Assembly (NCBI RefSeq): GCF_002005165.1
Contig: NZ_CP019699.1
Span: 3,100,001 to 3,164,000 of the forward strand
Direction of reading: 5' to 3'
DNA: 64,000 nucleotides
From: Novibacillus thermophilus
Lineage (GTDB): Bacteria > Bacillota > Bacilli > Thermoactinomycetales > Novibacillaceae
Part shown: positions 11,505-54,787 of the stretch, one piece after another
Layout of the letters: each line of letters opens with the position of its first letter
How positions within the stretch are numbered: position 1 is the stretch's first letter
Translations under genes and position numbers: made by a program
The notes under the pieces: generated by a model
The model's database searches: none
Told to the model about the DNA's origin: nothing
The model's input: the letters and a program-made list of their open reading frames with translations, nothing else

Positions 11505-13381
11505 ATCGAGTAGGAGGGGCGGCTAGCCCCCGTCCTCTCACACCACCTAGCATGCGGGTCCGCACTAGGCGGTTCCAAAAGGTTGACGAAGTTCCATATA
11601 ACGAGAAAGCATACTCTTCAGCCCTTTCGCTTCCCAGTAGGAAGTCGGAAGGGCATTGTTTGTGTTCCGGGACATTTCCCATGGTCCTCGGCGGGAATTG
11701 GCCATCATGAAGCAGGCCCATTCTGGTACGCCAAGGGCCCTAAGTTCACGAAGACGGGTTCTGACCCGTTTCCATTGTTTCCATAGGCACATCCTCAGTC
11801 TGCGCCGAATCCATTGGTCGAATCTTTCACAGTGCGTCTTCATCGATGCCAGTCGAAAGTACCTGACCCAACCGATGATGTAGCGGTTGAGCCGTTTAAT
11901 TCGCTCTTCCATGGAGATCGCCCGTGAACGACTCGTCATCTCACGTATTCTATCTTTGAATCGGGAGATGGTCTTCGGGGCTAACCGAATCGTTGCTTGT
12001 TTGTCCGGCAGAAAACTGAACCCTAGGAATTTCCGGTTCCAGGGGCGGTCTACCGCACTTTTGTCTCGGTTCACTTTCAGTTTCAGCTTTCCCTCTACAA
12101 AGCGAATTACCGATTCCATGACGCGTTCCCCTGCGCGCTTGCTAGCGACAAAGATGTTACAATCGTCCGCATAACGTGCGAATTGCAACCCGCGTTTCTT
12201 TAGTTCTTTGTCCAGGTCGTCCAACAAGATGTTGGCCAGAAGCGGACTCAGCGGTCCGCCTTGCGGCGTCCCTTCCTCTGTCCGTTGGCATACTCCGTTG
12301 ACCATGACTCCGGCGTTGAGGTACGCCCGGATGAGTTTCAGGTCTCGCTTGTCCTTCACCCTTCTTGCTACCCTCGCCATGAGCATGTCGTGGTTTACTC
12401 GGTCAAAGCACTTCTCTAAGTCCAAGTCCACAACCCATCTGTATCCACTCTGGATATAGCGCTGGGCTTGAAGGACCGCATCATGGGCTCGCTTCCCTGG
12501 TCGGAAGCCGTAGCTGTCCCATGAGAAGTGAGCATCGAAGATCGGATGCATCACTTGCAGCAGGGCTTGCTGGAGGAGCCGGTCCATCGCGGTCGGGATC
12601 CCTAGAAGCCTCACGCCGCCTCCAGGTTTGGGGATTTCCACCCGTTTGACTGGCGCGGGTTTGTAGGTTCCCGCTAGGAGCTCTGCTTTCACCTGTGCCC
12701 AGTGTGTGTTCAGGTAAGCCTGCAGTTCAGCTACCGTTACTCCGTCCACTCCGGGCGCTCCTCCGTTTCGGACCACTCGCTTGTATGCGAGCAAGAGATT
12801 TTCTCTCTCAAGCATCCTGTCCAGCAAGTCGTTATGGTCTTCGCGAGAGGAAGGGGCGACTTGTGCCGGAGAAGAGCTCGGCGCTCCAACATACCCTCGC
12901 GGCTTCACCGCTGCTCTCTGTTGGCAGCTCCCTTGCGGGATATTCTGCTGTCTGCGCTCTTCTCTCGAACGCATCGGTTTCCTCTCTCCTTTCGGTTCGG
13001 CCCTTCCGCTTTCCGGCGCCCCGTACTTGCGTACTATGGCCTCTGCTGACTCCTGCGGATTCAGCGCAGCCTCTCGACTGCGGTTACGATGTTACTTCGC
13101 GTGTTCCGCAGGCCTCCCCAGATAAGAGCGTCATCTTTCCGCCCGCGATCACTGGAGTTTACAGGATGAGCCCTTGGCGGCTTTGGATTTCGTTGTGTTC
13201 TGGCAACTCATCCGACTAATCCTGCCTCAAATCCAGTTCGTGTACCTTGACCCGTGCGTTTGTCTCCGGCTTCCTTCAGATTCCGCCTCGCGACGGACAC
13301 CCTTGCCTTTGACTACGGTAGGCGCTCGCCAGCCCCCGTTCGGGACTTTCACCCTATAGATGACGCCCATGCTGGGCGTAC
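11505..13381 (-). mobile_element. group IIC intron
   Basis: About 1.88 kb, minus strand. The 5' end at 13381 reads GTACGCCCAGCATGGGCG, the form seen at group IIC 5' ends. The 3' end shows the shortened class-C domain V (GAACCGCCTAGTGCGGACC... about 11540-11576) and domain VI ending CCTCCTACTCGAT (about 11505). The ORF lies in domain IV. The element sits directly behind an intrinsic terminator (13385-13416), the typical class-C target. The 3' boundary is uncertain by one or two bases. The domain VI stem pairs G5 with C4, which may be another homopolymer undercount. Confidence 0.88.
11565..12974 (-). CDS. ltrA: group II intron reverse transcriptase/maturase
   Basis: 469 residues. Class C intron-encoded protein: RT0 start (LLDRMLERENLLLAYKRV), VRNGGAPGVDGVTV, the palm motif FARYADD (catalytic YADD), then the maturase X domain (RLNRYIIGWVRYFRLA) and a short C-terminus. 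No HNH endonuclease domain, as is normal for class C. GAAAGGAGAGAGG precedes the ATG. The first ~45 residues are low complexity, so the true start may be later. RT motifs look intact, so the intron could be active. Confidence 0.95.
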   Translation of the reverse strand: MRSREERRQQNIPQGSCQQRAAVKPRGYVGAPSSSPAQVAPSSREDHNDLLDRMLERENLLLAYKRVVRNGGAPGVDGVTVAELQAYLNTHWAQVKAELLAGTYKPAPVKRVEIPKPGGGVRLLGIPTAMDRLLQQALLQVMHPIFDAHFSWDSYGFRPGKRAHDAVLQAQRYIQSGYRWVVDLDLEKCFDRVNHDMLMARVARRVKDKRDLKLIRAYLNAGVMVNGVCQRTEEGTPQGGPLSPLLANILLDDLDKELKKRGLQFARYADDCNIFVASKRAGERVMESVIRFVEGKLKLKVNRDKSAVDRPWNRKFLGFSFLPDKQATIRLAPKTISRFKDRIREMTSRSRAISMEERIKRLNRYIIGWVRYFRLASMKTHCERFDQWIRRRLRMCLWKQWKRVRTRLRELRALGVPEWACFMMANSRRGPWEMSRNTNNALPTSYWEAKGLKSMLSRYMELRQPFGTA

Positions 13382-41089: not shown

Positions 41090-44000
41090 TCACTCAACTT
41101 CATTCTTTTGATAGAGTTGCTGGATCTCCTTTGCACTCAGTGCCCAATTGTAGATGCGTAACGCGTCAACCGAGCCTTTCACTTTGAATGCCTCTGAATT
41201 CCACGGTGCTCCTCCGATGATGAGGGGGTGTTCGTTCCTTCCGATTGGAGCGGCACTCGCCGGAATGTTTTCAACTTCTTCACCATTTACGTAGCCAATG
41301 AGTCTACCGGCTGATTGCCATGTAAGCGCCAGATGTGTCCACTTGTCTTTCGGAATGGATCCACTGTGGAAAGTGTAGTGTGTCCCAATGGCATCCCACA
41401 ATTCGGGATAAAGCTTTCCATTCTCCACGCCTAGAATAAACCCATTGTCAATACTTGATTTCCCAACGATTTTTTGATTGGCACTCGGGTCCGTAAGGTT
41501 CACCCAAACGGACAGCGTTAATTCGTCTCCACCGTCGAGTAGCGCGTCATGCGGCACTTCAACCCGCCCCCCATTTAATCGGAGCGCGTTGCCGAACTTG
41601 CCAGTTTCCCACGTGGCCTCACCGTGCACCGTCCCTTCCAATCCATACGGTGAAGAGTCACCAGCCACAGTGCCACTGTCTTCGTCAAACTGAAGCGATA
41701 ACACGGGTTCGTCATCATGCAAGGCGAACAGCGTTCCACTCAAGTTGTTAATCTGTACTTGATGGGAACCGGCCGTGACGTTTTCTACAGTGAAGGTGAC
41801 AGTTTCACTTTCACCCGGTTTCAGCGTTAATGTTTTCGCCTCAGCCAATTCACCGTCGAAATAAAACACCACTTTCTCTTCACCCGTCGACATGCCGACG
41901 TTTTCAACGAGGGCGGATATGTGTGCGTCTTCCCCAGGCCCCACATGGTCGAACTTTAAATCCGACGCCTTAAATACGGCCACGCCACCGTGTTGCCAAC
42001 GCTCGATAAAATAATGAGCGCTGTCGTAGAGAATGCGATGAGCATCCGCGGAGATGAGCCCCTTTTCTTGCTGATGGTCGAGCAACCGTTTAAAGCTGTT
42101 CATGTGTTTGAGCACCTTGTCGGTGGCTCCTTGTTGTTCGAACTGTTCCACCGCTGTCAAATGTAATTTCAGAGCACGGGCAGCACTCCGGTTCGTAAAT
42201 TCGCCCTCTTTTTCCAAGCGTTCCACAACGGTTTGCATACCAGCACTGAGGGAACCGATCCTTTCGCCGCTGTACCCGAGCAGTTCCACTTCCGATAAGG
42301 ACGTCGAACTGTGGCCGCCGTTGTCAGTAATTTCTAAGCGGTAATAGGCGTATCTTCCCGGGTTTTCGATGGCAAAGGCACGGGTATGACGACGCCACTT
42401 GAATGATTCATGCTCCCTTTCATCCAGCACCGTCCAGTTTTCGCCGTCGTTCGACCCTTTCAACACCCAGCTTGTCGGGTCCGCCTCGTGCGAATCTGCT
42501 CCGGAAGTCAACGTATACATAGTGGCCTGTTGTTTTCCTCCGGCAAACGCATATTGGATCCAGGGCTTGTCGCTGTTCACCGTCCAGCGCGTATCGGATG
42601 TGTTGTCGAACAACTTGGCAGTATCGCCGCCTTCACTATCGGACGCGGTCCCTGCATGATCATCAGTCAAATCTTTGAGCGGTTTCGGAGCCGATAATCC
42701 GTCTGTTGCCGCAGGCGTAATTGACTTCGGCAAGTCCGTTAGGTTACTTCCCCATTTGGAAGGCTTCGGTCCCATGTCGAAGTCTAACGTCGCACCGTCC
42801 ACGAGATCGGCATGTGAGATGTAGTTTTTCGTGTAAGTTGTGCCGTTTAACTTTAATGCTTGAACGTATTTATTCTCCTTGCTGTTGTTTGGAGCGTTAA
42901 TGACAATATCCTTGCCATTTTCCAGATGGATCGTCACTTTTTTGAACAGAGGGGCACCGATGGCATATTCCGGCGTACCCATTTTGAGCGGATAGAAGCC
43001 GAGGGCACTGAAGATATACCAGGCCGACATCTCGCCGTTGTCTTCGTCACCCGGATACCCCTGTCCGATTTCGCTTCCGATATAAAGTCGATTTAACACC
43101 TCGCGAACTTTCTCCTGCGTCTTCCACGGCTGACCGGCGTAGTTATACATGTAAATGATGTGGTGAGCAGGCTGGTTACTGTGCCCGTACATGCCCATCC
43201 TGACGTCCCTGGCTTCTCTCATTTCATGAATCAAGCCGCCGTATCCGCCCGGGAACATAGCTGTCTCCGGTGTTTCGAAAAATTCATCTAGTTTTTTGGC
43301 AAGCCCTTCTTTTCCACCGTACAGATTAGCCAGTCCTTGCCCGTCCTGTGGTGCGTGGAACGCCATGTTCCAAGCGTTCGTTTCTGTATAGTCCCTGCCC
43401 CATTCGGCCGGATTGAAGTTCTCCGGTGTGGACCGCCAGGCGCCAGAGGCCGTTCGTCCGTTGAAAAATCCGATTTTCGGGTTAAACATTTGGATGTAAT
43501 TCTGGGCACGATTTAAGAAGTATGTGTAATCTTCCTCGTAATAAGGATCATAGGGATCCGTTTGGTCACCTTTCTCGGCGAGGGCCTTGGCTAAATTCGC
43601 GATACCGAAATCATTGATATACCCATCCAGTGCCCAAGACAGACCTTCACCGGTGGATGTGTTCGTATAACCGTCGAATACGGACGTAGCCATCCCTTTT
43701 CTGCCAACGTTCGCGTTAGGGGGCACGACAGCGGCATCCTTTATCGCCGACTGATAGAAACTTTTCACGTCGAAATTGGTGACGCCTTTCAGATACGCAT
43801 CCGCAAAGGCGATGTTTGCACTTGTGCCGACCATCAAATTGGCGTATCCCGGCGAAGACCAGCGGGAGATCCAGCCGCTGTCCCGGTAGTGCTGCACGAA
43901 TCCGTCAATCATCTCCCCGGCTTGTGTCGGAGTTAGCAAGGCGTACGCTGGCCATGCCGTGCGATACGTGTCCCAAAAGCCATTGTTCACGTACACCTTG

Positions 44001-46185
44001 CCGTCTTCAATTTTCGCGCACGTTTCAGTTGCTGTACTCGTCGTACACGGGTTCAAGTCAAACTGGCTCGCATATTTGTAAACGGGTTCCTCCAGCGTCC
44101 CGACATTTTCGTACGCTGAGTTGGGATACAGGAATAAACGGTACATATTGGAATACAGTGTAACGAGCTGGTCCTCCGTCGCCCCTTCCACTTCGATGAT
44201 CCCTAACTTGTCATCCCACGCTTGCTGTGCCCTTTCTTTAATCGTTTCAAAGGTGTCCTCAGCGCCGATTTCCTGCTCCAAATTTTTCTTCGCTTGTTCG
44301 ACACTGATCAGCGATGTAGCAATTTTCATCGTCACCACTTTATTTTCTGTCGTGTCAAATTTGTAGTAGGCCGTCACGTTGTCGCGGCCTTCTCCGGTCA
44401 ATCTGCCACTGTCGACGATCGGCTGATCGAATGTCGCGTAAATGAACATCCGGGTCGCTCCAGTGGAAAGACCGCTTCTCTGATCTGTATAGCCTGTGAT
44501 GGTCCTATTATCGGGATCAAGGGTAATGCCACCGTTATTGCTCACATTGTCGAATATGAGGTTAGAGGAGTTTCCCTTAAACGTAAAGCGCATCATCGCC
44601 GCGTGATCGGTCGGAGTCATCTCTGTTTGAATGCCATTTTCAAAGGTGACGCTGTAATAGTGGGCTTTGGCCATTTCGTTGTCGTGCTTGAATGGCAACG
44701 CACGTTCTTTCCGATCGGCACTCGGTTTGCCAGTTGCATCAGATGGCATCACCTGGAACGTCTGGCGGTCCCCCATCCACGGACTTGTCTCATGGCTTAA
44801 GGCAAAGGCCTGGATTTCCGGAAGATTATCTTCATTATTACTTTCGTGATATGCATAGATCCAATTGGACCCTGCGTTCGTCACCGGCGTCCAGAAATTA
44901 AACCCGTGTGGCACAGCGACTGCAGGGAAGGTATTCCCCGTGAAAACGTACCGTTTGACTGCGTGCCACGAAGTGTGTTGACATATTCGGAAAGTCTGTC
45001 ATACGTTCTCTCTTCGGGATTCGCTTCGATTTTAATATCATCGATGCTCCCCTTAAATACGGCCGGGCCTCTGGGGTTATCGTAGGCAATGAGTATGCGC
45101 TCGATCGTTTTCCCCGCTGCGACATCTCCGATCTTTGATTTTTTAAAGTTCCATTGATGCGCGTACAGAGTTTTTGAATTTCCTTGGTCTTGTGGATTGA
45201 GTTTGATCCCGTGCTGGTCGACGGCTTCAAGCTCATGCAGATAGGTCCCGTCGGAAAATGCGAGATCGACGGCTGCATACGTACTCGCGTAGTCCAAATG
45301 ATCCTTATCGGTAAATTCCGGAAAAATGTAATACGACAGTTCGGTATTCTCAGTTACCGGAATGTCGACATCAAAAATTTTATTATACGAATAAGCACGC
45401 CCTTCTGTGAGATGCGTTCCAGAATACGAGAACGCCTTCAAACCTGTCCATCCGACGTTCGTCTTAGCTGCATACGCGCTCGAAGGTCCTTTTGAGGTGA
45501 AAGATTTCATATCTGAAGGAGGTGGCGGCGGGACATCAATACCGTTGGATAGCTGGATTTCTGCTAACTGCGTCAAGCCATCCCCGGCATTTTTCGCAAT
45601 GTCAAATCGATAATATTGGTAGGCGGTTTCGTTATCAAACTCGTAGATTTTCGTTTGGAAACGCTCTTCAAAGACTTCATTTGTTCTCGTATCCAACGTC
45701 GTCCAATTTTCGCCGTCACTGGACCCGGAAAGCGTCCAGTCTCGAGGATCTCGGCCCGGGTAGTCGTTCGCTGAAGTAAAGGCGTATTTCACAACCGTGT
45801 CCGGCTCAGAAAGTTGAAGTTCAATCCAAGCCGTACGCTCAAACGCCAGCCATTTCGTATTCACGTCTTGATCCATCAACTTCTGTTCCGTTTCATTCGG
45901 TGGATTGTTGGCGCTTGCCGTCACTTGCTCAACTTTATCTGTAATGTTACCTTGAATACCGTCAAATGGAATGTTGCCATCAACGCCCTCCGTCATTTTA
46001 CGGCCTTCCGCATCCGTTTCGACCGTATTTTCCCAATCCGGTTGCGGATCACCTTCTTCAAACGAAGTGAAAAAATCGGTTGGGGCTGCATGTGCCGTCT
46101 GAACAGGTGGTGTATATAAAATCCCGGCAAGCAATGTATATCTGACGATCACTGACAAAACCCTCGTAACCCGTCCCTTCTTCAT
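41090..46185 (-). CDS. secreted multidomain GH92 protein with Gln at acid position, one-base frameshift
   Basis: 1698 residues after adding one C to C4 at 44936-44939 (FSRG-NTFPAVAVPHGFNFWTP). Order: signal peptide (to about 34, ending AHA); F5/8C/CBM32 (about 100-215); a beta domain (about 230-400); GH92 (about 410-1170); a second F5/8C; FIMAH (LKHMNSFKRLLDHQQEKGL); CARDB; C-terminal LamG/concanavalin-like domain. The acid motif is HSNQPAHH, with Gln (codon 43172-43174) in place of Glu. GH92 enzymes with that change are known to uncap mannose-1-phospho-6-mannose. AAAGGAGG precedes the ATG. Confidence 0.9.
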
Positions 46186-46508: not shown

Positions 46509-46830
46509 TTGTAGGACAAACCATAAAAAATGTGAGGAATCAATCTCTTTACTTTTATGCTAATTTCTTCAAATTTTTGTTAATAGTTCGATATTACTGG
46601 TTGTTTTCGGGCTTTGTGCTCTATCATTTTGATGTATATAGACTATTAGACATAGCGTTCTTCGAAGAAAAATTCCCTTTGTCAAACCATTTTATTCCCA
46701 GGTTAGTCGTACAACCCGGATCAAGGCATGGTCCTTTGTGTTCATTGACCTTTGGCAAATTGAAATAAGGGGTTGACAGTCGAAAAAAATATTTTTAAAA
46801 TGAGGTAAAATTAAAACAACAATACCGGAA
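46509..46830. other. AT-rich intergenic region upstream of the riboswitch
   Basis: No gene recognised. The segment just before the riboswitch (TTGACAGTCGAAAAAAATATTTTTAAAATG, about 46773-46802) offers a consensus -35 TTGACA with weaker -10 candidates about 17 bp on (TTTTTAAAAT), a plausible plus-strand promoter for the S-box transcript. Confidence 0.45.
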
Positions 46831-46943
46831 CTCTTATACAGAGAGGGGGAGGGACTGGCCCTATGAACCCTCGGCAACCATTGAATTGACTCAAACGGTG
46901 CCAATTCCAGCAGATCCTTGTGACAGGGTCTGAAATATAAGAG
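46831..46943 (+). ncRNA. SAM-I (S-box) riboswitch
   Basis: Classic S-box aptamer: P1 5' strand CTCTTATA (46831-46838) pairs perfectly with TATAAGAG (46936-46943); the conserved core reads CAGAGAGGGGGAGGGACTGG then CCCTATGAACCCTCGGCAACC, followed by GGTGCCAATTCCAGCAGA and GTCTGAAA. It binds S-adenosylmethionine and, in Bacillota, turns sulfur genes off when SAM is plentiful. It controls the monooxygenase-symporter operon that follows. Confidence 0.96.
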
Positions 46944-47010
46944 GTTCCGCTACAGAGTTACTACCCTCGTGTAGTCAGTGAGCGGCCTCTTAAACAAGAG
47001 GTCGCTTTTC
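46936..47010 (+). terminator. riboswitch expression platform: terminator and antiterminator
   Basis: Terminator: AGCGGCCTCTT (46981-46991), loop AAAC, AAGAGGTCGCT (46996-47006), then TTTT. Antiterminator: TAAGAGGTTCCGC (about 46938-46950), which includes the 3' strand of P1, can pair with GCGGCCTCTTA (46982-46992) leaving a TT bulge. SAM binding locks P1, freeing the terminator; without SAM the antiterminator wins. This is read directly from complementarity. Confidence 0.92.
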
Positions 47011-47119
47011 AATTGTCAAAAGTCTGAAAGAAGGTGATTCCTCAAAATTTGTCGTCATATAAACATATTATTCCCATTAGATTAATCTGTTTACTACACT
47101 TAAAAAGGAAGGTTGCTCA

Positions 47120-48493
47120 ATGAAAAAACAAATTCATTTGAACGGTTTTGTCCAACATTCTCCATCCCCCCATTCCACCGGACTGTGGAGCTATAAACAA
47201 CACGAAGGGCATCGCCACAATCGCTTGGCCTATTGGGAAGAAATAGCCCGAATTCTCGAGCAGGGGAAATTTGATGCCCTGTTTTTCGCCGATGTGATCG
47301 GAACTTACAGCGTCTATCAAAACAGTTATGAACCAGCTGTGACGAATGCCGTTCAAATACCTGCCCACGATCCCTTACTTGTGATTTCAGCCTTGGCTGC
47401 CTCGACTCAACACATTGGTTTTGCCGTAACCGTCTCGACGACCTATTCACAGCCGTATTTCTTGGCGCGGCAATTGTCGACACTCGATCACCTTACAGAG
47501 GGTCGAGTCGGGTGGAACATTGTGACGTCCTACCTTGAAAGCGAGGCGGTGAATCTGGGTTTAGAAAGGCGCTTACCGAAACATGTCCGGTACGATCGCG
47601 CGGATGAATTTTTAGAGGTAGTTTACAAACTGTGGGAACACAGTTGGGAGGATGATGCTGTCGTCCTTGACCGGAAAAACCGTGTGTTCGCCGACCCCTC
47701 CAAAGTCCATTTGATTAACCACCACGGTTCGTACTTCGATGTTCCGGGACCGCATTTGGTAGAGCCGTCGCCGCAACGGACCCCTGTCTTGTTCCAAGCC
47801 GGGGCATCCCCGCGTGGGCAGCGATTTGCAGCCAAACACGCCGAAGCTGTGTTCATTAAATCCCATTCCCTTGAATCGTTGAAAAACTACGTCCAGAACA
47901 TCCGGAATCTCGTGGAGGAACAAGGGCGGGACCCGCACAGTGTCCTCATTTTTCCTCTTATCTTGCCGATCGTCGGTTCGACAGAGGAGGAAGCGCACCG
48001 AAAATACGAAGAATTAAAAAACCATGTGAGCTATGAAGGGACACTCGCTTTGCTTTCTGGGCATACTGGCATAGATTTCTCCAAATTTGATCCGGATCAA
48101 TACATCGAAGACATGGAAACAGAGGCAGTCCAGGGAAATTTGAACCTGTACACGAAAGATCCGACCAGAAAGTGGACGTTGCGGGAAGCGGTCATGAACC
48201 ATGGCCTCGGAAACGGTACGGTCAAATTTGTCGGAACACCTGAACAAATCGCCGACCAAATAGAGCAATGGGCCGTTGAAGGCGATGTCGACGGATTCAA
48301 TATCGCCCACGCTCACTCACCGGGAACCTTCCAAGAATTCGTCGAATATGTCGTTCCCGAATTGCAACAACGCGGTATCTACCGGACAGAATACGAAGCA
48401 GTGACGCTGAGAGAAAACATGTTCGGAAAAGGGCGTCGGTTCTTACAGGAGGACCATCCAGCAAAACAAATCCAGGTTGCTACAAACAGCTGA
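47120..48493 (+). CDS. NtaA/SnaA/DszA-family FMN-dependent monooxygenase
   Basis: 457 residues, bacterial-luciferase fold. Family motifs: LYTKDPTRKWTLRE, HVRYDRADEFLEVVYKLWEH, PQRTPVLFQAGASPRG, and a C-terminal GTPEQIADQIEQW. Members (DszA, NtaA, SnaA, YtnJ) use FMNH2 and O2 on sulfones, chelators or S-containing amino acids. The S-box upstream says the substrate supplies sulfur, for example a sulfone or S-alkyl compound; the exact one cannot be read. AAGGAAGG precedes the ATG. A reductase partner is not in the window. Confidence 0.92.
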   Translation: MKKQIHLNGFVQHSPSPHSTGLWSYKQHEGHRHNRLAYWEEIARILEQGKFDALFFADVIGTYSVYQNSYEPAVTNAVQIPAHDPLLVISALAASTQHIGFAVTVSTTYSQPYFLARQLSTLDHLTEGRVGWNIVTSYLESEAVNLGLERRLPKHVRYDRADEFLEVVYKLWEHSWEDDAVVLDRKNRVFADPSKVHLINHHGSYFDVPGPHLVEPSPQRTPVLFQAGASPRGQRFAAKHAEAVFIKSHSLESLKNYVQNIRNLVEEQGRDPHSVLIFPLILPIVGSTEEEAHRKYEELKNHVSYEGTLALLSGHTGIDFSKFDPDQYIEDMETEAVQGNLNLYTKDPTRKWTLREAVMNHGLGNGTVKFVGTPEQIADQIEQWAVEGDVDGFNIAHAHSPGTFQEFVEYVVPELQQRGIYRTEYEAVTLRENMFGKGRRFLQEDHPAKQIQVATNS

Positions 48494-48540
48494 ATGGTGC
48501 GATAGTGTCCCATTCGATTTCATGATAAAGGAGTTCAAAC

Positions 48541-50046
48541 ATGACGGAAATCCAACTGTTTTTGTGGATCGGTTTAGCTGCTTTCCTCGTCCTTATACTC
48601 GGAATTGGAATTTACAGCGGAAAAAAGACGAAGAGTGTCCGCGATTTTGCCATCGGCGGTGGTCAATTGGGACCGGTCGTCCTTGGGCTTTCTTTTACTG
48701 GAACGTATTTGAGTGCCGCGGCTTTTTTGGGTTATCCGGGTTGGTCCTACGAATACGGGTATTCCAACCTCTGGCTTTTTTTGGCGATCATGGGTGGCGG
48801 ACCGATCGGCGTGTTGATGGTGGCCAAGCGGGCAAGAAAAATCAACACGACCCAACAATCTCTTTCTTTGCCAGATTGGCTTGGAGACTATTACTCCAGC
48901 GATTTTTTGCGAATTGCGACCAGCATCATCCTCCTTTTCAACATTTTTTACATCGCCGCCCAATTCGTCGCCGGAGCCAGGATTTTCGAGTATTTGCTCG
49001 AAATCCCCTATGGGAACGCACTGATGACGACTACTATCATTGTCATCATTTACGTCTACGTGGGAGGGGCGATCGCCGATGTATACACCGATGCGATCCA
49101 AGTCATTCTTATGGCGGTGACCGGACTTCTCGTTTTTGTCTCCGGTATCGTTCTGTTTTGGGAAGGGGGCCTCTCGGAAACCTTTTCCGCTATCACAGCT
49201 AAATTGACAGCACAAGATTCAGACTTGGGACGAGTCTTCCACCCCGAATCAGATTACTTTTACTCCCTTCCAGCAGTGATAGGCGCACTTTTGATTCAAT
49301 GGGCGTTTGCCTCAGCCCCTCACCTTTTCAACAAAGTGCTTGGGGTGAAAGACGAACGGGATCTGGGTAAAATGATTTTCGTCTACGTCGTCACGAAGCT
49401 TTGCTGTCTGGCTGTTTTCTTCGGTGGATTTTACAGCCGCGCCCACCTGGGAGACCAGGTCGTCATGAGCGATTTGGCTCTGGTCGAATACATGGTCCGA
49501 GTTTTCCCCGCCGTGATCGCTGCCCTAATGATTGTGGTGATTTTGGCAGCGGCCATGTCGACGACGGACGGGCTGTTTGTTTCCATTTCCACCGTCTTCG
49601 CCAACGATATTTTCTTAAAAGCGCTCGTTCGACGCGGAATCTTGAAGATGAGCAAAAGACGTGCAGAAAAAACAGCTCTTCTCGTGAGCCGTGTCGCGAC
49701 TGTCGGGGCCGGTATTCTGGCTTGCTTGCTCGTTTTGAATCCGCCGCGTTACATGGCTGATATCCAATGGCTGGGGATATCCGGTATCGCGGCCGGTACA
49801 CTCGGCCCCATTTTGTATGCCGTATACGGGAAGAAAAAAGCCCACGCTCGAGCGGCGGAATTTTCGATGGTGATCGGTCTTACGTCCTATCTGGTCTTGT
49901 ACTTCGGCGGTATCGAAAAAAGCGCCATGGCTGCTGGCGCCTGGGCGACCCTAATCGGTATCGGATTGATGATCGTGTTGGCGAACACTTTGAAAGTCCC
50001 TAAAAAAGTTCAACAGCATGCCGAAAAAGCGATAAAGGCAAAGTGA
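48541..50046 (+). CDS. sodium:solute symporter (SSS family)
   Basis: 501 residues, about 13 membrane helices. SSS features: N-terminal GIYSGKKTKSVRDFAIGGGQ, GLSFTGTYLSAAAFLG, the helix-8 region AAAMSTTDGLFVSIS that helps bind sodium, and a basic C-terminus. Follows the monooxygenase by 47 bp with AAAGGAG and no terminator between, so both fall under SAM control. Likely imports the organosulfur substrate; the substrate is inferred only from context. Confidence 0.93.
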   Translation: MTEIQLFLWIGLAAFLVLILGIGIYSGKKTKSVRDFAIGGGQLGPVVLGLSFTGTYLSAAAFLGYPGWSYEYGYSNLWLFLAIMGGGPIGVLMVAKRARKINTTQQSLSLPDWLGDYYSSDFLRIATSIILLFNIFYIAAQFVAGARIFEYLLEIPYGNALMTTTIIVIIYVYVGGAIADVYTDAIQVILMAVTGLLVFVSGIVLFWEGGLSETFSAITAKLTAQDSDLGRVFHPESDYFYSLPAVIGALLIQWAFASAPHLFNKVLGVKDERDLGKMIFVYVVTKLCCLAVFFGGFYSRAHLGDQVVMSDLALVEYMVRVFPAVIAALMIVVILAAAMSTTDGLFVSISTVFANDIFLKALVRRGILKMSKRRAEKTALLVSRVATVGAGILACLLVLNPPRYMADIQWLGISGIAAGTLGPILYAVYGKKKAHARAAEFSMVIGLTSYLVLYFGGIEKSAMAAGAWATLIGIGLMIVLANTLKVPKKVQQHAEKAIKAK

Positions 50047-50058
50047 GGGGATGTTTCT

Positions 50059-50160
50059 ATGTTCATTAATCCAATGCTTTCGTTATGGTTTTTTGGATCG
50101 ATTTTATTTTTGATCGTCATCTTTTTTTTGTTGTGGAAATGGTATTTTCACAAATATTAG
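50059..50160 (+). CDS. symporter small accessory protein (33 residues)
   Basis: One hydrophobic helix (LSLWFFGSILFLIVIFFLLW) with a basic end (KWYFHKY). GAGGGG lies 8 bp before the ATG; the gene starts 13 bp after the symporter stop and ends just before a strong terminator. Tiny single-helix proteins encoded directly after SSS symporters are a recurring arrangement in Bacillota and are annotated as symporter accessory proteins. Function by association. Confidence 0.75.
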   Translation: MFINPMLSLWFFGSILFLIVIFFLLWKWYFHKY

Positions 50161-50166
50161 GTTGAT

Positions 50167-50211
50167 AAAAACATCAGGGTTTCCCTCAAGATTAGGAAAT
50201 CCTGATGTTTT
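50167..50211 (+). terminator. intrinsic terminator of the SAM-controlled operon
   Basis: AAAACATCAGG (50167-50177) and CCTGATGTTTT (50201-50211) are perfect 11-bp arms, extended inward by TTTCC/GGAAA. T-rich on both sides, so it may work in both directions. Confidence 0.9.
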
Positions 50212-51599: not shown

Positions 51600-54500
51600 T
51601 TATTCTACAAACTGGACCTCCGGGTAATCTTCGGATGGGGAAAGCAGCAACGGCTGCTGAACTCCCTTTAAATGCAGATCAAAAAAGGACGCAATATAAT
51701 GACGCTGGGCTGCGATCGTCCGTTCCGGGTCGGCGGTCCCGATACTTTGCTGGATCACCCTCGGCGAAAGGCTGAGCTTCTCCTGCAACTGCGGCAGCAG
51801 CACCTGGTAATCCGTAAAGGTGAAATGCCCCCCGTGGGTATCGTCAGATCGAGCTTCCAGCCGCTTGAATGCTGCCAGAACATATGACGATCTTTCGCAG
51901 TAAGATGCGAATCGATCTCACCTTCGTCGTTGTATCCAGAATTCATCAGCATGAAGGGCCGATCCAGACCGTGCTCTGCCACCGGAAGCGGATTGTCGGG
52001 CATGTGGCCCATCGTGCCATCCATGTTGATACCGGCGTCGATTCGGTCGTCCTCATACATCACTTGTGCCGATGTGGCGCCTCCCGCGGAATGGCCGAAT
52101 ACGCCGATCTTGGTCAAATCCCATGCTTCCTTAAGCCCTGTCGGCAGCTGCCGGCTGCCCGGATGGCGACCTTCGTTCATGAGTTCGAGTTGATCCAGCA
52201 AAAACCGAATATCTTCCACTCTCACTTTCAACGCCTTCAGAATCGATTCTGCGCTGGATTCCGGTAGTGTCTCCACCGCCACCCGTCCGTCGGGAAACTG
52301 AACCGCAGACGTTTCATATGGGTGGTCGACCGTAACGACCACATACCCTCTACTGGCGAGTTCTTCCACCAATACCGTACCAAAGTTTCTCGGAACAGTT
52401 CCTCCCGGCGAATAAATGAGAACCGGCCATCCTTCACCGCTGTTCGCCGCAGGCACGTCCAGCCAAGCGTGCATGCCGATGCCGGACAGGTCGATTCGTC
52501 CCGGGTCGACTCCGATTGTAGGGAGGATGTTCTCGCCGTTTTCCTTTGCCGCTCCAGGTTGCATGTACAGCGCTTTTTGCCGGCCTTCCCGTTCGGCGGG
52601 GTACCAGATGCTGATCATTAATTCCCGCTTCCTGTCGTTCACCCAGGGGTCTTTCCGCTTTTCATCGATCAGATGCATCTCCACAGTCCCGACGGGATGC
52701 TCCCCTGCCGGTTCCGGAAGCTCGAGCCGTATCTTCTCTGCTTGGTTGCTCCCTTCCTGTGGCGCTGGGGACTCTAGTCCGATGACTATTCCGACCAGTG
52801 ACACAAAACTGAGAACAATGGCGACGACGGCAACCCTAACCGCAGGTGCTGACCTGACGTTGATGACCCTGCTGATGGAGTTGACCGTAAGAATATAGTA
52901 CACGGCATAAATCAGGATGAACACGGCGACGCAGAGAACGATGGGCAGCAGAAGACTGATACCGGCTATGTTGCTGAACAATCGCTTCAGCAATTGCAGG
53001 ATCACGAGGTAATGGGCGAGCCCGACCGTAAGCGGCAAAGCAAAAATAAACGCGGTTTGCTTGGCGATGGCGATACTGATTTCCTTACTGCCGACTCCAA
53101 TTTTTTTCAGAATGTCATACCGGGGTTTATCGTCCGCCGCCTCCGACAGCTGCTTGAAGTAAATCATGCTGCCGGTCGCCATTACAAAGACAAGCCCGAG
53201 AAAGCCCAAAATAAACACATTGAAGGCTGCTCCTTCAATACCCAACCGGTATTCGGTATAATAGGAGGCCAATTGCGACTCCGGCGTTTTCACGTCCGCC
53301 AGCGCGTCAGCCGTCTTTTTCGTCGTTTTCTCATCCTCTACAACGTATCCGACATAACGGGTCGGTGGCACCTGCGCTTTGATTTTGTCGTAAGTTCCGT
53401 CGGCAACGACAATCATCACATCCGGATAGCTCCAATTGACGACTCGTTCGACGGTCATGCCGGCAATCGCGAGGGTGATGCTCTGTGCGGGCAAGTCGAC
53501 AGAGACCGTCTCTCCCGCGTAATCGGACCACTCATAGTCCGTATACATCGGCCGGATCATAACGGCTTCATCTTCGTTTATCGGGTCAAGCGCAGGAAAA
53601 CCCAGCACCTCAGCCGCCCGGTTATATTGCTCGATTGATATCACTTTAAGCGGCGTGTCATCGGCTTGCAACACTTTCTCCGACAGAATGTCCGAATCGG
53701 AAGAGCTTCCCTTCGTTTGCAGCACCGGGATCGTCATTTGTGCAACGACAGGGTGCGCTTCATCCCCGCGTATGATCTCGTCCACCTTCTGGTTAAAGGC
53801 ATCGTCCTGGGCGACATACATGTAGCTGAAAGGCGCCGCCAGTCGTGTTGTTTTTTCAAATGTGAAATACATGCCCAGCCCGACGCTGAAGGCACATAAC
53901 GCCGCTGCGGACAACAAAGAAATGACGCTTAACAAACGGGCATTCCCTTTTATTCGGTACACCAGATTCGATACGCCGACCAGATTCATTCCTTTATAGT
54001 AGCTTCGCTTTCTCTTTCTGGCCGTTTTCAACAGGACGACAACCAGGGAGGAAAACAGCAGCACCGTGCCCCCGACAATACCGACGGTCATGACACCGAG
54101 ATTGAGAAGGATTTCTTCGGTAACGGAAAAATCGCGGAAGGCGAACCCGTACCCGATAAGCAGGCAGAAAACCGCTGCAACAGCCGAGAAGCGCGACGCT
54201 TTCGGTTCCTGCTCCCCTTCCTGTTCGGCGCGAAACAATTCGATAAGCTTATAGGCGTAAATCAACCGGTAGCCTTGAATGGAGGTTACGACAATCAGGA
54301 CCGTGAACACGGCGAACGTATGGATCAGCGCCTTCAGGGAAAAAACCATGCCCACCTGCACCGCCGTTCCCAGCAGCTTGATCAAGATCATGGCAAACAG
54401 CTTGGATAACAACGTGCCGATGGCGATTCCTAAGATTAGGACGATGATTCCGATGATCAGATTTTCATAGAACAGCATTTTGCCGATCGTTTTTTTGGGC

Positions 54501-54787
54501 AGCCCGAGCAAGGCGTACAGTCCGACCTCTTTCTTGCGTCTTCTAGTAAAGAAGCGGTTGGAATTCAAGATAAAAGCCGCCACGAAAACGATTAATATGG
54601 TGGACGCCACCATGAACACGGAGCGCATGCTTTCTGACGATTCTATCGCATCTGCAATTTCCGCGCTGTACTGCAGAGACACAAACGTAAAAAATATTAC
54701 GACGCTGAACAGCATCGAAATGAAGTAGACGAGATAGGTTTTGAAATTTCCTTTCAAATTTTTTTTGGCGATGTCATAAGTGGTCAC
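51600..54787 (-). CDS. BceB-type ABC permease fused to PAF-acetylhydrolase-like domain, one-base frameshift
   Basis: 1062 residues after adding one base to GGG at 51836-51838 (LTIP-HGGHFTFTDY instead of LTIPTGGISPL). Residues 1-640 are a BceB/FtsX-type permease: about ten helices and a ~200-residue outer domain (about 316-515), ending YAVYYILTVNS as BceB does. A further helix (about 650-672) leads into an alpha/beta hydrolase like PAF-acetylhydrolases (LPEPAGEHPVGT; RELMISIWYPAE; GHSAGGA with Ser900). The GTG start abuts the stop of the degenerate ATPase gene. The fusion joint is in frame and not at a homopolymer. Confidence 0.85.

Follow-up and report, generated by a model that had tools for sequence, protein, structure and literature searches.

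A SAM riboswitch-led monooxygenase, symporter and small-peptide operon of Novibacillus thermophilus as a likely organosulfur-scavenging unit

S-adenosylmethionine (SAM) riboswitches of the S-box type are familiar controllers of methionine and cysteine biosynthesis, and a locus of Novibacillus thermophilus raises the question of what such a riboswitch serves when the operon behind it consists of a flavin-dependent monooxygenase, a sodium:solute symporter (SSS) and a peptide of 33 residues. The locus lies in a stretch of 64,000 nucleotides (NZ_CP019699.1, positions 3,100,001 to 3,164,000 of the forward strand), referred to below as the window. The operon is likely to be repressed by SAM and to serve the scavenging of a single kind of organosulfur compound. 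The assignment to SAM-repressed scavenging is well supported because the cassette recurs behind S-boxes and because the host carries further organosulfur operons of the same control; as to the compound itself, each single substrate class is at best a doubtful candidate.

The operon and its leader RNA

The S-box is followed by the monooxygenase, the symporter, the peptide and a closing terminator, which is the three-gene arrangement described in the initial annotation. Its elements are as follows.

46773-46801, plus strand: promoter-like site, TTGACA-17-TAAAAT, a consensus match only (11 of 12 positions)
46831-46943, plus strand: complete SAM-I (S-box) riboswitch aptamer (cmscan, RF00162, model positions 1-108 of 108)
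46938-46991, plus strand: antiterminator, formed by the P1 3' strand (about 46938-46952) with CCGCT, paired with the 5' half of the terminator (ViennaRNA)
46980-47009, plus strand: leader terminator with a 12-bp stem (46980-47007), a 4-nt loop and a short T run (ViennaRNA; hairpin scan dG -18.2)
47120-48493, plus strand: NtaA/DmoA-family monooxygenase dependent on reduced flavin mononucleotide (FMNH2), 457 aa, pocket subclade Q12/P17/H18 (TIGR03860, residue table)
48541-50046, plus strand: sodium:solute symporter of the SSS/SLC5 type, 501 aa (PF00474, 162 bits)
50059-50160, plus strand: predicted single-helix membrane peptide, 33 aa, conserved companion of the symporter subfamily (conservation, pN<pS)
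about 50168-50211, plus strand: terminator closing the operon, a long stem with a T run after it (ViennaRNA fold)

The aptamer reaches 97.8 bits (E 2.2e-22) against a gathering score of 44.4 bits for RF00162, and is the top scorer among the nine S-boxes of this 3.63-Mb single-contig genome. On the 3' side of P1, the segment AAGAGG..CCGCT is complementary to AGCGGCCTCTT, the 5' half of the terminator stem, with a duplex energy of -15.4 kcal/mol. In ViennaRNA the full leader folds into the terminator, whose U tract is short (CTTTTC), and a transcript ending at about 46996 adopts the antiterminator as its minimum-energy form. This is an ordinary SAM-off attenuation layout, the P1 3' strand overlapping the antiterminator and the terminator lying downstream, and the terminator and antiterminator noted in the initial annotation are both borne out by folding. 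The S-box would bind SAM and shut the operon off. When SAM is plentiful, the aptamer would close P1, allowing the terminator to form and transcription to halt; when SAM is low, the antiterminator would form and the operon would be transcribed, as far as sequence and folding can tell.

The window leader has in common with known SAM-I riboswitches a complete, high-scoring aptamer and the mutual exclusion of P1, antiterminator and terminator by transcription attenuation. It differs in that an uptake-and-oxidation unit is controlled instead of methionine or cysteine biosynthesis. A near precedent is the ssuACB sulfonate uptake operon, which is under a SAM riboswitch in Bacillus methanolicus (PMC4342826).

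Recurrence of the cassette

A scan with the symporter as query yielded 27 loci. The monooxygenase (73-76% identity) stands immediately upstream of the symporter in 13 of them, and all 13 of these operons are preceded by an S-box. A second sample of 399 Bacilli genomes contained a strong monooxygenase match in 25 and a strong symporter match in 11; wherever the monooxygenase reached at least 68% identity, the symporter was adjacent (8/8 non-self genomes, two of which repeat contigs of the first scan). Together, 20 distinct Bacillota cassettes of monooxygenase, symporter and peptide were found, the window included, and an S-box lies ahead of 19. The co-occurrence that had been proposed as a check is therefore present, and it supports the initial suggestion of an organosulfur uptake-and-oxidation route used at low SAM. 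Of the 18 other S-box-led leaders, 16 show a convincing hairpin near the aptamer together with pairing of the P1 3' strand, an arrangement that is weak in the other two (L109 and L110). The hosts are Bhargavaea, Oceanobacillus, Pallidibacillus, a Bacillus coagulans metagenome-assembled genome, members of two further families and the window genome. The symporter reading frame is truncated in one cassette (L107).

The symporter also has 16 relatives without a monooxygenase (about 50-56% identity), nine of which adjoin an amidase. None of the 15 scanned for an S-box possesses one. Since 19 of 20 cassettes and none of these 15 loci carry the riboswitch, the S-box tracks the monooxygenase rather than the symporter. 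The initial annotation had regarded homologues conserved outside sulfur-linked regulation as evidence against its reading; such conservation is indeed seen for the symporter-peptide pair, and for the complete trio it is confined to a single locus, considered below.

The surroundings of the cassette vary. A flavin mononucleotide (FMN) reductase, CMD or OsmC gene lies within or next to the unit in some relatives, and in L109 and L110 an S-box and a MetY gene are found immediately upstream. A tautomerase-family gene follows the peptide in L108 (PF14552), and similar genes occupy this position in L109 and L110. No cassette was detected among 41 other genomes of the window's own order, and this isolation within the lineage suggests that it was acquired horizontally from other Bacilli. 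A description of this gene set was not found in the literature, the partial coverage of which makes this weak evidence.

The monooxygenase and the sulfur regulon of the host

Which compound might be oxidized? The enzyme scores 574 bits against TIGR03860 (cut-off 280) and thus belongs to the NtaA/DmoA family, some members of which (DmoA, DszA, YxeK and CmoJ) are established to cleave C-S bonds (PMC10863075). It was rejected as SfnG (TIGR04021, 91 bits against a cut-off of 383) and, on scores, as SsuD or YtnJ, CmoJ/YtnJ being a more distant relative. Its closest solved relatives are DmoA (6ak1, E 3.5e-143, full length) and LadA (3b9n), with which it shares family, length, fold and most residues of the flavin pocket.

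The enzyme could then be a true dimethylsulfide (DMS) or dimethylsulfoxide monooxygenase, the symporter carrying an unrelated cargo. This is suggested by the full-length similarity to DmoA and by the fact that DMS is a natural sulfur source. The binding residues of DmoA, however, are M12, H17, Q18 and G366-L367-G368 (PMC9259527), and at these positions alignment places Q12, P17, H18 and N365-G366-T367 in the window enzyme and the same residues in nearly all cassette enzymes. Most of 20 DmoA-like enzymes from Bacilli retain M12, H17, Q18 and G-x-G. On the changes M12 to Q and H17 to P, the identification as DmoA was rejected. In addition, volatile DMS requires no Na+ symporter, yet enzyme and symporter travel together throughout the clade, and no DMS turnover was observed for a group of annotated DmoA homologues, including one of Bacillus megaterium (PMC9259527). 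A DMS or dimethylsulfoxide monooxygenase is for these reasons very improbable.

In a tree, the cassette enzymes cluster separately from DmoA and LadA, although branches are long and some inner forks are weakly supported. The Q/P/H signature is also present in a paralogue of the same genome (66% identity). An S-box also precedes about half of the DmoA-like loci, several of which include a reductase of the SsuE type, and in other Bacilli lineages a related monooxygenase stands beside a short-chain fatty acid transporter (PF02667). The S-boxes and reductases support organosulfur substrates for the wider DmoA-like group, and the altered residues support a distinct pocket for the cassette clade.

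Several observations weigh against an organosulfur-scavenging role. The S-box is missing, even in a permissive scan, from one complete cassette (L108). The window operon itself lacks a flavin reductase gene of the kind that adjoins some related units. The genome encodes sulfate assimilation, with two ATP-sulfurylases and one phosphoadenosine phosphosulfate reductase, so that the organism probably does not depend on this organosulfur route. Lastly, the alkane oxidase LadA is about as near in sequence as DmoA, which means that the enzyme does not necessarily act on sulfur. The enzyme might accordingly oxidize an alkane or another sulfur-free substrate as LadA does, the S-box serving to limit the use of flavin or NADPH. 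This has very little probability: S-boxes accompany not only 19 of 20 cassettes but also the paralogue and a number of DmoA-like relatives, in many cases alongside SsuE-type reductases; alkanes need no Na+ symporter, to which the window enzyme is tied; and M12 and H17, which LadA and DmoA have in common, are both lost from the cassette enzymes.

Organosulfur scavenging remains the preferred reading, and the rest of the S-box regulon bears on it. The window operon does not stand alone: further organosulfur operons lie behind the eight other S-boxes of the genome. One S-box precedes an SsuE-type reductase and the monooxygenase paralogue (L057), and another an OsmC gene with SfnG (587 bits, cut-off 383) and an MsuE-like reductase (L061). 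Two complete aptamers in tandem (L056, genome positions 880347-880630) stand ahead of an SsuA-type ABC transporter. The remaining S-boxes lead a MetY-type enzyme dependent on pyridoxal phosphate (L059), a MetN-type operon with a CMD protein (L060) and two larger groups of genes. In the first of these groups (L055, G000:C1:1814000-1821500), a distant SSS symporter is joined by a MetQ/MetN/MetI-like ABC transporter and by an FMN enzyme resembling lactate oxidase; the group possibly imports a hydroxy or keto analogue of methionine. The second (L058, G000:C1:676000-683500) comprises an MHS transporter of the betaine/shikimate type, an acyl-CoA ligase and an enoyl-CoA hydratase; the ligase matches the 3-(methylthio)propionyl-CoA ligase model far under its cut-off, and the group possibly serves a DmdB/DmdD-like salvage of methylthiopropionate. 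In Pelagibacter, too, OsmC and metY are under SAM riboswitches (PMC5069961). Besides its ATP-sulfurylases and phosphoadenosine phosphosulfate reductase, the host gave a single match to a sulfite/nitrite-reductase domain, in a protein of 231 residues (L137, G000:C1:1559702-1560076).

The two reductases of the SsuE and MsuE types lie behind other S-boxes and hence under the signal of the window operon, and in Acinetobacter one reductase serves several such monooxygenases (PMC13352529). FMNH2 would then reach the window enzyme in trans, from a reductase of another operon in the regulon. The proposed route begins with the symporter, which, with the peptide as a bound subunit or stabilizer, would import a small polar organosulfur compound by Na+ coupling; the monooxygenase, judging by its family, would oxidize this compound and split its C-S bond, and the freed thiol or oxidized sulfur would feed the synthesis of methionine and cysteine. 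Were methanethiol the product, S-box-controlled MetY might, speculatively, combine it with O-acetylhomoserine and yield methionine directly, Corynebacterium MetY being able to use methanethiol (PMC4609165).

This last variant corresponds to a more specific proposal, in which a small S-methyl carboxylate or betaine would serve as substrate (methylthiopropionate, methylthioacetate or a compound like dimethylsulfoniopropionate) and be cleaved to methanethiol and an aldehyde. It agrees with the pairing of a related monooxygenase with the PF02667 transporter, with the transporter, ligase and hydratase of L058 in the same regulon, and with the MetY genes behind an S-box in the host and beside two cassettes. 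These arguments are all guilt by association, and the amidases beside the enzyme-free symporter relatives point to amide-type substrates, so that S-methyl carboxylates and betaines are a conceivable but rather unlikely choice.

The symporter, its peptide and known systems

The predicted fold of the symporter retrieves SSS structures in Foldseek (SiaT, 5nv9, as the best, then SGLT, CHT1 and NIS) and places it in this family, for which Na+ coupling would be expected. The candidates PutP (155 bits, cut-off 515) and PanF (151 bits, cut-off 328) were rejected. SSS symporters had been considered uncommon targets of riboswitches, a view to be corrected by other cases: the distant SSS of L055 is a second case in the same genome, and ThiV, another SSS symporter, has been published behind thiamine pyrophosphate riboswitches (PMC2211319).

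The peptide (MFINPMLSLWFFGSILFLIVIFFLLWKWYFHKY) has its own ribosome-binding site and one predicted hydrophobic helix. It follows the symporter in 36 of 36 relatives, starting with ATG, GTG or TTG and conforming to the consensus M[FW][VI]N-ML[ST]-W-YG...LWKWY. In all 465 pairwise comparisons the proportion of nonsynonymous differences (pN) is lower than that of synonymous ones (pS), which indicates purifying selection. Because of this and of its conservation in 36 loci, the peptide is taken as a real gene. It might nevertheless be a leader or regulatory reading frame and no protein subunit, being very short, placed immediately ahead of the terminator and modelled by AlphaFold in no confident position. 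There is scant chance of this, considering that selection acts on the amino-acid sequence, that translation has its own start signals and that the peptide comes after all 36 symporters, including those of unrelated operons under other regulation.

The initial annotation saw in the peptide an obligate accessory. It is a constant partner of the symporter and is not bound to the sulfur route: since it also follows the 16 symporters without a monooxygenase, it belongs to the symporter and is best described as a companion of this subfamily, not a component of the sulfur chemistry. A motif search around the host's more distant SSS paralogues (at most 34% identity) found no comparable peptide. Likewise, 20 members gave no consistent match to Pfam or NCBIfam, where HMMER filters may lose very short profiles. 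The name "symporter small accessory protein" is in use at NCBI for some proteins; neither an NCBIfam scan nor a text search confirmed it for the present peptide. The peptide may bind the symporter as a subunit or stabilizer. When both were modelled by AlphaFold2 as a read-through of the in-frame stop (47-row alignment), the symporter was well modelled and the peptide region had a predicted local distance difference test score of about 46-62, because of which no binding site is claimed.

Elsewhere in the window, all on the minus strand, 51755-54787 is a single reading frame with FtsX-type permease domains and a PAF-acetylhydrolase-like domain, a possible real fusion or the result of a lost stop. 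The genes of a GH92 glycosidase and of an F5/8C-domain protein, together spanning 41090-46185, run in different frames, overlap at 44881-44914 and may be one frameshifted gene. The stretch 13000-13297 contains two matches to group II intron structures (RF02001 and RF01998).

The cmo (ytnJ/CmoJ) and yxeK salvage operons of Bacillus subtilis combine ABC transporters with an NtaA-family monooxygenase under CymR-type control. They resemble the window unit in grouping transporters with a C-S-cleaving enzyme of this family (chemistry in PMC10863075) and differ from it in transporter and regulation, which in the window are an SSS symporter and an S-box. The dimethylsulfone system SfnG/MsuE forms a separate operon behind another S-box of the same genome (L061). 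As for the peptide, human SGLT2 is likewise an SSS/SLC5 transporter assisted by a single helix on a subunit of its own, MAP17 (PMC10803289); the bacterial peptide has only 33 residues, and the likeness is an analogy in layout, no sequence relation being expected. MgtS, SgrT, AcrZ and MgtU are also tiny proteins, in the membrane or associated with it, and act on a transporter by modifying or stabilizing it (PMC10710835); none of these examples partners an SSS symporter, whereas the window peptide is co-encoded and constant.

The window unit is a variant of known organosulfur-scavenging operons, of which the monooxygenase subclade and the uncatalogued symporter microprotein are the most interesting parts. 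It is tentatively suggested that the transporters of this SSS subfamily consist of two subunits, the second being an indispensable single helix of about 31-44 residues, which would make them a bacterial counterpart of SGLT2-MAP17 in layout. One branch would have come under SAM riboswitches along with a DmoA-like monooxygenase whose pocket is altered, for the use of an organosulfur compound with no described import-and-cleavage system. Annotation would label the cassette subclade as DMS or alkane monooxygenases. As the unit is compact, conserved and regulated in the manner of sulfur genes, a small organosulfur panel could give the subclade its function. The symporter-peptide pair, present with and without the S-box and monooxygenase, offers a natural comparison for the role of such peptides in the SSS family, SGLT2 included.

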